NCBI GenBank assembly: GCA_029007785.1 | Contig: JAQXIM010000062.1 | Location: 1-38,137, forward strand | Origin: Clostridiales bacterium | Lineage (GTDB): Bacteria > Bacillota > Clostridia > Lachnospirales > Lachnospiraceae | DNA: 38,137 nucleotides | Reading direction: 5' to 3' | Shown: piece by piece, positions 23,852-28,065 of the stretch | How the letters are laid out: each line of letters starts with the position of its first letter | Position numbering within the stretch: position 1 is the stretch's first letter | Position numbers and translations under genes: made by a program | The notes under the pieces: model-generated | What the model was told of the DNA's origin: nothing | The model's database searches: none | Seen by the model: the letters and a program-made list of their open reading frames with translations, nothing else

Positions 23852-23888
23852 AAGAAAAAGCTCCAGTATTTACTGGGGCTTTTTCTTA
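23852..23888 (+). terminator. Terminator after rplA
   Basis: AAGAAAAAGCTCCAGTA pairs with TACTGGGGCTTTTTCTT (one T-G pair) with a loop of about three bases; the T-rich 3' arm serves as the U tract. It directly abuts repeat element A. Confidence 0.9.
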
Positions 23889-23966
23889 TACAGCAGGAGA
23901 TTTTGTCCCTGTTGTACAAAAACCTTTGGGAGGATCTGTATGCTGCTTCAAAGGGAGTTTGGCTGC
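23889..23966 (+). repeat. Structured repeat element, copy A
   Basis: Begins one base after the rplA terminator. Hairpin 1: TACAGCAGG (23889-23897) pairs with CCTGTTGTA (ending 23916). Then come AAAAA, mini-hairpin CCTT-TGG-GAGG (23923-23933), an ATG at 23940 with the GGAGG of that hairpin six bases before it, and a conserved end GTTTGGCTGC (23957-23966). Positions 23912-23966 align without gaps to 27893-27947 at 43 of 55 bases. Hairpin 1 differs in sequence between the copies but keeps pairing. The ATG opens a 14-codon frame (23940-23984). I do not recognise the element. Confidence 0.65.
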
Positions 23967-24015
23967 CTTTTATTTCTTCTTTGATGTTTATATGGGTGAA
24001 GTGAAGAAAATGTAT

Positions 24016-24044
24016 TTGACAAGGATTTTTGGTCAGTGTACCTT
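24016..24044 (+). promoter_or_regulatory. Candidate promoter of the 819-residue secreted protein gene
   Basis: TTGACA (24016-24021), 17 bases, TACCTT (24039-24044). The -10 is weak. AAGGAGG follows before the ATG at 24068. Confidence 0.4.
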
Positions 24045-24067
24045 TAGAATAAGGAGGGAAAATCAGA

Positions 24068-26527
24068 ATGAAAGAAAATTGGATATCAAAAGTATACCAT
24101 AGAAGATTATGGTTGCTGTTATGGGGAGTTGTCTTGCTGGCACTTAATTTGTCCTGCACAATGGTATGTGAGGCAAAAGCTTCGGGAAAAGAGACTTATC
24201 TTAGTTCCAATGAGGGAGCCCAGGATTACGATTTTTATGGTGAGCCTGTCTCATCCTATCTGATTGCAGATGCTTCCGGGTATATCAGAATATCCGCTTT
24301 GGATACAGGCTATGTTCTTAGCGAATCTTTTGACACCAACTATCAGTATCAAAGTCAGGAATACATTGAGTACGAACTTCCTTTATTTGGGGGATTTTAT
24401 GCCGGAACAGATGCCTATTACCTCGTATTTGGTCAGAATAACCTGAATGAAAAAAACACGAAGGAAGTCTTGCGCGTTGTTCGATATGACAGGAATTGGA
24501 ATCGAACCGGAAGTGTTTCTCTGAAAGGCGCAAATACAACGAAGCCTTTTCATGCAGGAAGTCTTCGGATGGCAGAGCAGGATGGTTATCTCTATATTCG
24601 TACCTGTCACGAGATGTATACGTGTTCTGATGGATACAATCATCAGGGTAATTTGACGGTGGTTGTGAAACTGGATGATTTTACTCTAGCCGGTTATGCG
24701 GATTTTGAGACAAGTCATTCCTTTAATCAATATATTTTATTCGATGATGAGGGAAATTTGATTACACTGGACCATGGTGATGCCAATCCGGAACGGGCAG
24801 CTCTTCTGAGACGGTACAATCGGGCAGATAGTGACAGTTATCCTTTTGAAAATGGATTGAAGAACGGTTATTTTGAAGGATATGATAACGAGAGAGTCAG
24901 CCTGATTACTTATCAGGGCGGGATCGGTGATAATGACACGAGATCTGCCATGGGAGGAATGGAGTATTCTTCCACCAGTTATTTAACAGCAGGAAATTCT
25001 TCTCCCCAGGATATGGAGGAAATCTCTTCCGGTGATGTGAGAAATGTCTATGTCACGGTTACCGATAAAGTGGATTTTACAGAAAGCGGAACAACTATTA
25101 AGTGGTTTACCAACTATAAGAACAAGGACCATAAATATGCATCGAATCCTCAGCTTGTTAAGCTCAGTGACGAATCTTTCCTTCTCCTGTGGGAAGAATA
25201 TGAAGGCGAGGCCTGGTATCTCAGAGAGTCCAACGGAAAAATATCCTATGTATTTATTGATGGGGAGGGTAATGCCGTGAGCTCCGTCTACACGGTGAAG
25301 GGGAGACTTTCTGACTGTAAGCCTGTAGTATATAAAGGAAAAGTCATGTGGTTCGTTACAGACGATGAAAACATTACCTTTTATTCCGTTAATCAGAAGG
25401 GAAAACTGACGAAAAATAATGGGTCTTATCCTTCCGGAATGATTGTGTATCCTTGTGCCATCGAAAACTGTCAGATGATTTTTACCAAGGTTGGTTCCAT
25501 TAACAGCAGCTGGGATGAAATAAGCAAATCGATTGGTATGGCAAAGGGAGATCAGGTTCTGAAGAAAGACGAAGATTATTACCTTCGTGATACCAGTTGG
25601 AGATATTATGGTGAAACTGTTCTGGCTGTAACTCAGAAAGTGGCTGCTCTGGGAGAATTTTATTACGGAGAGACCTCCTTTACAATCGAGCCGATTCGTT
25701 CTCAGTCGATTTTGAACTCTGTAAAAATAACAGATCAGGGAGTGAAGCTTTCCTGGGAACGGGAGAGCGGTGCTATAGGGTATAAAATATACCGGAAAAT
25801 CGGCGGCGGAAGTTATGAGTGTGTGAAAACCATTAAGAAAAATCGTACAGTTACATGGACAGACACCGATGCGGATCAGGTCGGTAAGCAATATACATAC
25901 TATATTAAAGCGTTTACCGGAGATGGAAGCAAATATTATTACGCAGATAAGTCCAGGAAGCTTTCTGTAACATTACAGCTCGCAGCGCCTCAATTGACGG
26001 GTGTATCTAATCTTGCGGATGGAGTTCAGATACAATGGAAATCGGTTGCAGGGGCAAAAAAATATCGAGTCTTCAAAAAGGTCGGCAGCGGCAGCTGGAA
26101 AAAGGTGGGAGATACGACATCGACAGAATTGACAGATAAAACAGCGGAGTCGGGAACAACTTATTGCTATACGGTACGCTGTATTTCCAACGATGGAAAA
26201 TCTTACACCAGCAGTTATGATGCGAAGGGGAAAACGATTGTATATCTTTCCAGACCGAAAATATCAGAACTTTCCAATCAAAAAGATGGTGTTAAAGTCA
26301 GTTGGAAAAAGGTGTCCGGAGCTGCCGGCTATCAGATACAGTATTCTGCGGACAACAGCTTCTCCAAGGCGGTAAGCGTTAAGGTAAAAGGGGCTGACAC
26401 CCTGTCAGAAATAATAAGCGGACTTTCCAAGGGAAAAACCTATTATGTACGTATACGGGCGTATACAACGGTATCCGGCAAAAAGTATTATTCGGCCTGG
26501 AGCAGTACCAAAAAGTTTGTCAGATAA
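24068..26527 (+). CDS. Secreted protein with N-terminal propeller-like region and three C-terminal FnIII domains
   Basis: An 819-residue exported protein of unknown function. Residues ~12-37 form a signal peptide (WLLLWGVVLLALNLSC, then near CEAKA); a lipoprotein processing site at the cysteine of LNLSC is an alternative. Residues ~45-540 show recurring short beta-strand blocks with glycine turns (FDDEGNL, FIDGEGNAV, SLRMAEQDGYLYIRT), suggesting a beta-propeller; this is inference. Three fibronectin type III domains follow (~548-637, ~639-727, ~729-819) with the GYKIYRK/YRVFKK/GYQIQYS cores. No wall anchor is seen. AGGAGG precedes the ATG. It is inserted between rplA and rplJ, normally adjacent. 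Its FnIII units resemble those of the protein at 12780. Confidence 0.85.
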   Translation: MKENWISKVYHRRLWLLLWGVVLLALNLSCTMVCEAKASGKETYLSSNEGAQDYDFYGEPVSSYLIADASGYIRISALDTGYVLSESFDTNYQYQSQEYIEYELPLFGGFYAGTDAYYLVFGQNNLNEKNTKEVLRVVRYDRNWNRTGSVSLKGANTTKPFHAGSLRMAEQDGYLYIRTCHEMYTCSDGYNHQGNLTVVVKLDDFTLAGYADFETSHSFNQYILFDDEGNLITLDHGDANPERAALLRRYNRADSDSYPFENGLKNGYFEGYDNERVSLITYQGGIGDNDTRSAMGGMEYSSTSYLTAGNSSPQDMEEISSGDVRNVYVTVTDKVDFTESGTTIKWFTNYKNKDHKYASNPQLVKLSDESFLLLWEEYEGEAWYLRESNGKISYVFIDGEGNAVSSVYTVKGRLSDCKPVVYKGKVMWFVTDDENITFYSVNQKGKLTKNNGSYPSGMIVYPCAIENCQMIFTKVGSINSSWDEISKSIGMAKGDQVLKKDEDYYLRDTSWRYYGETVLAVTQKVAALGEFYYGETSFTIEPIRSQSILNSVKITDQGVKLSWERESGAIGYKIYRKIGGGSYECVKTIKKNRTVTWTDTDADQVGKQYTYYIKAFTGDGSKYYYADKSRKLSVTLQLAAPQLTGVSNLADGVQIQWKSVAGAKKYRVFKKVGSGSWKKVGDTTSTELTDKTAESGTTYCYTVRCISNDGKSYTSSYDAKGKTIVYLSRPKISELSNQKDGVKVSWKKVSGAAGYQIQYSADNSFSKAVSVKVKGADTLSEIISGLSKGKTYYVRIRAYTTVSGKKYYSAWSSTKKFVR

Positions 26528-26643
26528 AGAAAAAGCAGATAAAATAAGGTGAAAACAGATTTTTTACAAATGCTTTTCAGAAAGAATGTAAGCCGCACTC
26601 CGATTAGAGAGGCGGTGTCAAGCAAAAAAATGAAAAATAGTAC

Positions 26644-26672
26644 TTGACAAGAACCAGAATTTATGGTAATTT
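26644..26672 (+). promoter_or_regulatory. Promoter of rplJ-rplL
   Basis: TTGACA (26644-26649), exactly 17 bases, TAATTT (26667-26672), immediately upstream of the L10 leader. This gives rplJ-rplL a transcript independent of rplK-rplA. The stretch 26528-26643 shows nothing else recognisable. Confidence 0.7.
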
Positions 26673-26679
26673 ATGAAAG

Positions 26680-26821
26680 TCTGTAGAAGATACTACAGCA
26701 TATACCACTGCCGAAGACAGCAGGTGCCGTAAGGCATAAGTTGAAAACGCCTGCCGAGGAAGAATAAGTTTCACAAAAAGTGAAGTTGTGTCCTCCTGTC
26801 GGTGACGGGAGGATTTTTTTT
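26680..26821 (+). promoter_or_regulatory. Ribosomal protein L10 leader (autoregulatory attenuator)
   Basis: The leader RNA of rplJ. A first hairpin CTGTAG/CTACAG (26681-26698) is followed by the conserved L10-binding fold: outer stem GCAGG (26720-26724) with CCTGC (26750-26754), inner stem GCC-GTAA-GGC (26726-26735), flanked by CCGAAGACA and CGAGGAAGAA. A terminator completes the element (26791-26821). In Bacillus and relatives L10 (with L12) binds this structure and promotes termination when in excess. Confidence 0.88.
26791..26821 (+). terminator. Attenuator terminator of the L10 leader
   Basis: TCCTCCTGTC pairs with GACGGGAGGA around a three-base loop, followed by eight T. It lies 68 bases before the rplJ start and is expected to be conditional. 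Confidence 0.9.
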
Positions 26822-26889
26822 CCCATTGCAGAGGTACCTATCTGTGGTCTTGATGACTACGCAAAATTTATAAGGAGGTAACCGAATCC

Positions 26890-27381
26890 ATGGCTAAAGT
26901 AGAAGAAAAACAGCCGGTTGTTCAGGAAATTGCTGAGCTGCTTGCCGATGCGAAATCTGCTGTTCTGGTAGACTACCGCGGAATCACCGTTGAAGCCGAT
27001 ACTCAGCTGCGTAAGCAGGCGAGAGAAGCTGGCGTTGTTTATCGTGTATACAAGAACACTCTGATGAACATCGCGATGAAAGGAACCGAGTTCGAAGCTC
27101 TGGCTGGAGACCTGAAGGGACCGAGTGCCATCGCTGTTTCTAAGGAAGATGCTACTGCTCCCGCAAGAGTTGTTGCTACTTTCGCAAAGACCAACGACAA
27201 GATTTCCCTGAAAGCTGGCGTTGTAGAAGGCGAATATTACGATACCAAGGGAATCAATGCAATCGCTCTGATCCCTGGAAGAAACGAGCTGCTGTCCAAG
27301 CTGCTTGGAAGTCTGCAGTCTCCTATTGCAAACTTTGCTCGTGTTATTAAGCAGGTTGCAGAGCAGAAAGCAGAAGCATAA
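26890..27381 (+). CDS. rplJ: Ribosomal protein uL10
   Basis: A 163-residue stalk-base protein that carries the L7/L12 dimers and binds 23S rRNA. AVLVDYRGITVEADTQLRKQ and YKNTLMNIAMKGT are family signatures, and the C-terminal helix (IANFARVIKQVAEQKAEA) binds L12. AAGGAGGTAACC precedes the ATG. It is controlled by the upstream leader. Confidence 0.98.
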   Translation: MAKVEEKQPVVQEIAELLADAKSAVLVDYRGITVEADTQLRKQAREAGVVYRVYKNTLMNIAMKGTEFEALAGDLKGPSAIAVSKEDATAPARVVATFAKTNDKISLKAGVVEGEYYDTKGINAIALIPGRNELLSKLLGSLQSPIANFARVIKQVAEQKAEA

Positions 27382-27452
27382 GATTAATTTATTGCTGGAA
27401 TTTAATTAACAAGACTATCACTATTAAAAGAAAATAATCGGAGGAAAATAAA

Positions 27453-27824
27453 ATGGCAAAACTGAGTATTGATGAGATCATCGCAGCAGTTGAAGAGCTG
27501 AGCGTATTAGAACTGAATGACCTGGTTAAAGCTTGTGAAGAGAAATTTGGCGTATCTGCAGCAGCAGGCGTTGTAGTTGCAGCTGGCGCAGCAGCACCCG
27601 CTGAGGAAGAGAAAGATTCCTTTGACGTAGAGCTGACTGACGTTGGTCCTAACAAAGTTAAAGTTATCAAAGTTGTTCGTGAGCTGACCGGTCTGGGCCT
27701 GAAGGAAGCTAAAGCTGTTGTTGACGAAGCTCCCAAGGTATTCAAGAACGAAGTATCCAAAGAAGAAGCAGAAGCTGCTAAGGCTGCTCTGGAAGCTGAA
27801 GGTGCAAAAGTTACTCTTAAATAA
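27453..27824 (+). CDS. rplL: Ribosomal protein bL12 (L7/L12)
   Basis: A 123-residue stalk protein that recruits translation GTPases. N-terminal dimerisation part ([20 protein letters not shown]), Ala-rich hinge and C-terminal domain ([20 protein letters not shown]) are all present. CGGAGG precedes the ATG. It lies 71 bases after rplJ and is followed by a strong terminator. Confidence 0.98.
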
Positions 27825-27840
27825 TTTTTTCGCCTATAGA

Positions 27841-27868
27841 AAAAAGACCGCGCAAGCGGTCTTTTTTT
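27841..27868 (+). terminator. Terminator after rplL
   Basis: GACCGC (27846-27851) pairs with GCGGTC (27856-27861) across a GCAA tetraloop, extended by flanking A/T pairs and followed by a run of seven T. Repeat element B begins two bases later. Confidence 0.93.
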
Positions 27869-27869
27869 G

Positions 27870-27947
27870 TGCAATAGGAAACTCTGTTCCTATTGCATAA
27901 AACCCTCCGGGAGGATGAGCATGCCGCTAAAAAGGAAGTTTGGCTGC
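27870..27947 (+). repeat. Structured repeat element, copy B
   Basis: Begins two bases after the rplL terminator. Hairpin 1 is perfect: TGCAATAGGAA (27870-27880) with TTCCTATTGCA (27887-27897). Then comes the mini-hairpin CCTC-CGG-GAGG (27904-27914), an ATG at 27921, and the shared end GTTTGGCTGC (27938-27947). The ATG opens a 32-codon frame (27921-28019) whose first nine codons read M-x-L-x-R-x-F-G-C, as in copy A. Further hairpins follow only in this copy: GGCTGC/GCAGCC (27942-27957), GCGC/GCGC (27958-27969) and the one at 27971-27992. Confidence 0.65.
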
Positions 27948-27970
27948 AGAAGCAGCCGCGCGGCAGCGCG

Positions 27971-27996
27971 AGAGTTCCGCGAGCGGAACTCTTTAT
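27971..27996 (+). terminator. Terminator-like hairpin downstream of element B
   Basis: AGAGTTCCG pairs with CGGAACTCT around CGAG, followed by TTATTC. The T-run is short, so it could be a weak terminator or simply the last hairpin of the structured region. Confidence 0.5.
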
Positions 27997-28065
27997 TCTA
28001 CACAAAATTCTTTATATAAAAGCATTGGTATCATGGGATCCATAGTATGAAATGTTCACATTTTC

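Follow-up and report, generated by a model that had tools for sequence, protein, structure and literature searches.

The 38,137-nucleotide stretch analysed here, hereafter the window (contig JAQXIM010000062.1, positions 1 to 38,137 of the forward strand, from assembly GCA_029007785.1 of a Clostridiales bacterium of the Lachnospiraceae), carries two similar structured stretches, copies A and B, directly 3' of the intrinsic terminators of the ribosomal-protein genes rplA and rplL, and raises the question of what kind of element would settle in such places. An initial annotation had described two 78-base copies and offered three suggestions, namely a post-terminator RNA, a read-through sensor or an insertion-prone small repeat, of which the last fits best. 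What is observed is a sizeable repeat family, assigned here to no known family. It is probably a non-autonomous mobile DNA element without conserved coding capacity that inserts at the hairpin and T-run of intrinsic terminators. More tentatively, it may represent a new kind of mobile element, gene-less and only some 130 bp long, for which terminator hairpins, read as DNA by their shape and by T-run pairing, are the landing pads. Such an element would make a new pad with each insertion and be moved in trans by a putative, possibly reverse-transcribing, Lachnospiraceae enzyme.

Architecture and copy number of the repeat

Copies A and B do lie right behind the rplA and rplL terminators, as first described, and agree in 60 of 81 columns without gaps; the compensatory pair changes reported between them (A-T to G-C, C-G to T-A and G.T to A-T) are present in the sequence of both copies. 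The structured repeat is real, with a length of about 130 bp rather than 78; the stretches originally reported correspond to one end of it, and copy A is a diverged, 3'-truncated member. All features given below lie on the forward strand of the window. The rplL intrinsic terminator, a hairpin followed by a T-run (27840..27868), has fully complementary arms (27840-27851 and 27856-27867) and is the likely landing site of copy B, a complete element (27869..27998) that the broader covariance model R2 matches over 27867-27997 with 132.5 bits. Its 3' boundary is supported by the right end CTCTTTRTTC, which is common to most full-length copies of the same genome. The rplA intrinsic terminator (23856..23885), recognised from its predicted fold and sequence, is the presumed landing site of copy A (23886..23974), which is matched with 37.9 bits and 49 skipped model positions and whose clear similarity ends near 23966.

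Copy B is built from a succession of hairpins. The long palindrome P1 (27865..27902; 16-nt arms, 94% complementary) comes first, its outer bases pairing the flanking T-run with an AAAA behind P1, and is followed by a mini-hairpin, CCC-UCC-GGG, with a conserved AGGAT (27903..27916). Helix P2 (27917-27927 with 27960-27969, region 27917..27969) encloses an unpaired AAGGAAGTTT stretch together with P3 (27942-27947 with 27952-27957), and the element closes with P4 (27971..27998), a terminator-like hairpin AGAGTTCCGC/GCGGAACTCT with 10-nt, 100% complementary arms and a T-rich tail. Past the end of the 78-base copies, the order read at other copies in the genome runs from GGCTGC..GCAGCC through GCGGCAGCGC and this hairpin to the tail CTTTRTTC. 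Terminal inverted repeats are absent from copy B, where only internal hairpins occur (other copies were judged by eye).

The mini-hairpin had already been noticed, drawn as CCTY-NGG-GAGG, a pairing that fits worse than NNC-UCC-GNN followed by AGGAT. Across 95 aligned sequences, 85 fit NNC-(UCC or near variant)-GNN, a pattern that itself fixes the inner C/G, and all but 2 of those 85 have a Watson-Crick middle pair (83; variants CCC/GGG, CGC/GCG and CAC/GTG). The ATG that had been taken for a possible start codon is kept in 2 of 25 rows from other genomes in alignment A4 (by eye), and one copy from the same genome (L007) has a stop at codon 4; since neither ATG nor frame is conserved, a reading as a small open reading frame or peptide was rejected.

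A pattern from the shared centre of the two copies, GGGAGGATNNGYATGC, matches the genome 11 times, compared with 0 matches for the reversed pattern, well above what chance would give. The covariance-model search that the initial annotation had called for, carried out with a model (R1) built from 11 copies, found 30 places in this genome at an expectation value (E) ≤1e-3; when 150 genomes of the family were sampled, 53 had matches. Altogether, the genome holds about 36 full or partial copies, comprising 20 with both halves, 15 with the P1 side only (copy A included) and 1 with the P4 side only, in a tally made by hand from half-element searches plus copy A. Four places where a P4-like hairpin stands without the rest, and two places with weak P1 similarity (contigs C76 and C44), are not counted in it. 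Copies with both halves are 84-100% identical to the query, and the 14 listed P1-side copies are 81-98% identical over the part kept, 12 of them at least 89%; the truncated copies stop at varied points. At three places in the genome (G000:C85:5934-5967, C38:10505-10533 and C11:1764-1795; L091-L093) the P4 sequence forms an isolated palindrome around GAGTTCCGCGAGCGGAACTC, flanked by A-rich sequence on one side and T-rich sequence on the other; these are possibly bidirectional terminators derived from P4.

Position behind terminators and probable insertion

The preference for post-terminator positions, suggested originally from two copies, extends to the wider family. A terminator-like structure is taken here as a stem of 6 or more pairs with T's behind it, ending at the left edge of the element. 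Such a structure precedes 83 of 133 copies; among control positions from the same loci, it precedes 31 of 1746 chosen at random and 127 of 1096 ends of T-runs. The count of copies omits L152, L172 and L231, which repeat L043, L045 and L057, as well as copies whose left flank is shorter than 60 bases (including L049, L191 and L212). For the genome of the window alone, the figure is 24 of 30. Copies behind terminators share the orientation of that terminator. Furthermore, some loci hold tandem copies in which the second begins right where the P4 of the first ends (L022/L040, L058, L205, L209, L359 and L440), which indicates that P4 can itself serve as a landing site.

Comparison of occupied and unoccupied positions points to insertion. 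When the rplL end was aligned in same-genus genomes (by eye, over 280 bases), the terminator was present and a complete element absent in 8 of 8, one of these sites holding a 20-base P1 remnant; at rplL, the only site so compared, the position of the element is therefore not conserved. In addition, one pair of sites shows insertion at a T-run: an empty site in [C.] aminophilum DSM 10710, CTCC-TTTTTTT-CTTTACTTTAC (CTCC-T7-CTTTAC), has a filled counterpart in KH1P1. There CTCC-TTTTTTT leads into the element, after which come 48 bp that contain another P4-like end and finally TTTTTT-CTTTACTTTAC, with no target base missing. As to target-site duplication, this one filled/empty pair shows T7 on the left and T6 on the right, the insert carrying the extra 48 bp; the other sites found with the same query contained no second clean pair. 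Three copies of the repeat are internally deleted with both ends kept. At the KH1P1 counterpart of the site L286, an apparent group II intron end adjoins a decayed element copy (first 420 bases of L423, by eye; no Rfam match at gathering threshold).

On the reading of the repeat as a mobile element, a putative enzyme acting in trans (a transposase, recombinase or reverse transcriptase) would recognise the terminator in DNA form, namely its hairpin, single-stranded or extruded, and the T's that follow, while the AAAA behind P1 would pair with the T-run of the target. The inserted P4 with its T-tail may then become a fresh landing site, and the tandem copies would find their explanation in this. 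By landing behind a terminator and bringing its own, such an insertion would be nearly harmless to the host.

Covarying helices: RNA or DNA

The helices covary strongly. In alignment A6, which holds 95 sequences (from 100 loci, matches kept at E ≤1e-5), 90.7% of cells are paired compared with 68.8% after shuffling, 39 of 40 model pairs show two-sided changes, including 11 of 11 in P1, and 0 of 500 shuffles reach any of five measures; sliding the partners by 1-3 columns lowers pairing to 32-51% (at most 51.0%). In P4, two-sided changes occur in 7 of 7 pairs. Because alignment A6 was fitted to the model, it leans towards structure; the MAFFT alignment A4, which was not model-fitted, has two-sided changes in 24 of 26 predicted pairs. 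Three copies folded as DNA on both strands gave z-scores of -7.4 to -10.3. The tips of P1, P3 and P4 are able to hold extra hairpin modules; the P1 of Eubacterium oxidoreducens-type copies (L232-L236, L398-L402) can accommodate a CCCCCACCTC..GTAGGTGGGGG module, and in genome G160 also a further GGAATGCTACGCATTCC module. An autonomous relative with a gene inside P1, hinted at by contigs ending within P1, was considered and rejected, as the longer G160 copies hold only further small hairpins.

The initial annotation took paired double substitutions as a sign of selection on RNA structure as such, which the main helices do not support, being almost purely Watson-Crick with no excess of G.U over A.C. 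Counted per copy in 101 rows of alignment A5 (the first 101 of 109, leaving out 8 weak matches with E 0.0006 to 0.0093), G.U and A.C are about equally rare, with 24 and 26 in P1, 5 and 7 in P2b, 8 and 9 in P3, and 14 and 10 in P4, respectively. In the consensuses of 8 subfamilies, taken from eight genomes with at least 4 copies each (that of G158 mixing two subfamilies), the same four helices contain 223 Watson-Crick pairs, 1 G.U, 0 A.C and 12 other combinations. As a control, 32 distinct tRNAs from the loci and the window gave 652 Watson-Crick and 47 G.U pairs of 699 (Fisher p 4e-5 against 1/224 G.U in the consensuses), where only the G.U share is usable for comparison; the tRNA A.C count of 0 would be an unfair control because ARAGORN brackets only well-paired stems. 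The near absence of G.U in the main helices points to DNA hairpins rather than RNA. Helices so nearly purely Watson-Crick are unusual for selection on RNA and are expected of hairpins that matter as DNA on either strand; this is taken as support for the DNA reading, not proof.

Evidence against the mobile-element reading

Several observations weigh against this reading. On the structural side, the model's mini-hairpin (40 G.U, 2 A.C) and its weak helix 5 (45 and 3) show an RNA-like G.U excess in the 95 rows of A6, which probably reflects wrong pairing in the model, and P2a shows the reverse imbalance, 3 G.U and 18 A.C in the same rows. The conserved unpaired AGGATGCGCA and GGAA stretches would suit an RNA too, and template-switch correction of palindromes could give Watson-Crick double changes without selection. 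As regards target choice, the TAACTCAG/ATCTCGG subfamily, which unites the E. oxidoreducens-type copies, with edges that are usually T|TAAC on the left and CTTGAC on the right, and the related ATCTCGG copies, is rarely found behind terminators (1 of 24 copies); with it excluded, the proportion becomes 82 of 109, the subfamily having been separated after the counts were seen. At the sole filled site that was aligned, the 48 bp past the element include another P4-like end, and insertion there may have taken two steps.

The search for a mobilising gene likewise found none. The Y1 transposase of IS200/IS605 elements (PF01797) occurs in 35 of 53 genomes with the element and 52 of 97 without it (p 0.17), and gave 0 matches in the 97% complete assembly to which the window belongs. 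Among genomes with the element, 38 of 53 carry reverse transcriptase (PF00078), as do 51 of the 97 that lack it (p 0.025, uncorrected for the testing of two families), and the only RVT_1 match in the genome of the window (G000:C79, L457) is a 655-aa frame inside a group II intron, one that presumably splits a DNA polymerase III alpha-like gene. Neither presence convincingly explains the distribution of the element. As to a relation with group II introns, R2 had no match at E ≤1 in seven reverse-transcriptase or intron loci, and Intron_gpII had none in the window or the element loci searched, whereas the same tool finds group II models in the reverse-transcriptase loci.

Alternative explanations

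Among the alternatives, the one that survives best is a retroposon resembling a short interspersed element, in which a minus-strand transcript would be copied from the 3'-OH at the target T-run, so that the P1 end is made first and copies become 3'-truncated; we consider it unlikely as a full account, while giving it more weight than its competitors. The tally of halves in the genome of the window is skewed in the direction that would fit this process (20, 15 and 1; binomial p 5e-4), truncated copies end at differing points, and group IIC introns, as presented in PMC3240598, illustrate that a retroelement can target terminators. P1 could nevertheless be kept for other reasons, the four P4-like hairpins without the rest stand outside the tally, and the genome's own reverse transcriptase belongs to the group II intron. 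Moreover, no reverse-transcriptase match was found in G011, G087 and G142, which are 3 of the 16 genomes with at least 7 counted copies (the G011 assembly being 86% complete).

Somewhat less favoured, and again unlikely, is a functional structured RNA family, such as a 3' untranslated region regulator, a read-through sensor or a small RNA, that spreads with host terminators and acts as RNA. Strong covariation, the conserved unpaired stretches, the G.U excess in the mini-hairpin and helix 5, and the shared orientation of post-terminator copies with their terminators would all accord with it. It sits poorly with the near absence of G.U from the main helices of the subfamily consensuses, the unconserved rplL position within the genus, and the many 3'-truncated and three internally deleted copies; in addition, neither window copy contains a promoter-like match. 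No Rfam family names the repeat: at gathering threshold no model overlaps copy A or B in the window, a scan of two loci from this genome found none over the element, and a scan of Rfam 15 at E ≤1 over 2 such loci and 10 divergent ones gave, as sole overlap, a microRNA model that scored 23.8 bits where its cut-off is 70. The specific proposal of a read-through sensor is not supported.

Another explanation, ranked slightly lower still and regarded as doubtful, is that the repeat is a REP-like miniature of the IS200/IS605 (Y1) type whose transfer proceeds through single-stranded DNA. The hairpins at both ends, the lack of terminal inverted repeats in copy B, an insertion just 3' of a short T-rich site from which no target sequence was evidently lost, and the TTGAC at the end of one subfamily would suit such an element, the right ends of IS200/IS605 elements resembling TTGAC. 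Against it stands the lack of any association with Y1 genes, including in the assembly of the window itself. Four element queries against 16 Y1 loci found no element ends beyond two 13-16-base matches (E 0.15-0.40), although one internally deleted copy lies about 1.7 kb from a Y1 fragment. Finally, that the covariation is a mere by-product of palindrome correction by template switching, the repeats being inert relics, would account for main helices whose double changes are strictly Watson-Crick, yet is improbable given that the P2 arms still covary more than 30 nt apart with P3 between them and that one subfamily is near-identical across genera.

Distribution among genomes

Within the family, the 53 genomes with matches (E ≤1e-3) include 13 with at least 10 counted copies and, where counts are highest, at least 22, all figures being taken from the matches listed; in the genus of the window, 6 of 11 genomes match. 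A scan of the class with R2 at E ≤1e-5 gave matches in 11 of 393 genomes. The family itself contributes 8 of these, from 20 genomes, and the other 373 genomes contribute 3, of which G256 and G316 are read as real and G255 is doubtful. The at least 120 stretches listed derive mostly from Lachnospiraceae or genera taken as such, or from unclassified Clostridiales, Eubacteriales and Clostridium, with Sarcina, Ruminococcus and Syntrophobacterales among the rest. The P1 arm is present in 114 of 126 core matches of loci L247-L367; a match on a viral contig (L367) and one in Syntrophobacterales (L351) were judged to be chance because a P1 arm was not found in them and they look coding by eye.

Copies of the E. 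oxidoreducens type from Eubacterium oxidoreducens, Lachnospira multipara, L. pectinoschiza and others share 96-100% of their bases along 124-129 bp, and these near-identical copies sit in unrelated flanks. Such near-identity of one subfamily across genera suggests recent spread. A search of plasmids and phages with one copy of this type gave no match.

Comparison with known systems

The repeat appears under no name in Rfam or in the open-licence literature searched (titles and starts of abstracts). Short palindromic, high-copy repeats with genome-specific subfamilies and no terminal inverted repeats are known as REP/BIME sequences with RAYT (Y1) transposases and as IS200/IS605 minis. The repeat shares all of these traits and differs in having several helices, in being directed to terminators and in showing no Y1 association in the searches made. 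In Y1 systems, hairpins and guide pairing direct the cutting of single-stranded DNA; what is observed of this in the repeat is the presence of hairpins. Unlike miniature inverted-repeat transposable elements (MITEs) derived from DDE-transposase elements, copy B has no terminal inverted repeats. Rfam structured RNAs have covarying helices as the repeat does, with no family matching it at cut-off, and a cis-regulatory RNA or leader would differ from it in view of the rplL position, not conserved in any of the 8 same-genus genomes (by eye).

Group IIC introns, such as B.h.I1 of Bacillus halodurans, insert behind intrinsic terminators, where, according to PMC3240598, it is the stem formed by single-stranded DNA that they recognise and not a particular sequence. 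The repeat shares this location (83 of 133 copies); it differs in its size of about 130 bp, the lack of an intron domain match, the absence of an internal reverse transcriptase and the possession of its own 3' terminator-like hairpin. Small bacterial repeats such as RUP, ERIC, Correia/NEMIS and others are described in PMC2229807 as small and non-autonomous, some with RNA structural motifs, which makes them comparable; they are set apart by their other hosts, by the absence of terminal inverted repeats in copy B and by the preference of the repeat for terminators.

Neighbouring features and a second repeat

Between rplA and the L10 leader (26693-26828) with rplJ, the window contains a gene for an apparently secreted protein of 819 aa (24068-26527). 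Locus L357 has, to the right of the element (about 700 to 1100), a different repeat some 90 bp long (GTTTGAAAGTAAACTTTCAAACTTTGATTGACGGCTCAAATAGACAAGC..GAGCCTGGAGGACAAAATATG), which recurs at dozens of places in two [Clostridium] aminophilum genomes. At L357 it lies a short way 5' of an ATG, and it seems to be a leader-like repeat in its own right.

Significance

The repeat would constitute a widespread family, and Roseburia, Butyrivibrio, Lachnospira and Coprococcus, with their common gut bacteria, are among the genera in which it occurs. Several copies are located at contig ends, and the repeat may for that reason break short-read assemblies. The near-pure Watson-Crick covariation of the subfamily consensuses could mark repeats that are constrained as DNA, a point that matters for the discovery of RNA families, and the putative mobilising enzyme presents a concrete target. 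For its hosts, in which transcription ends would be used as insertion sites, the repeat may supply many genes with a second terminator.

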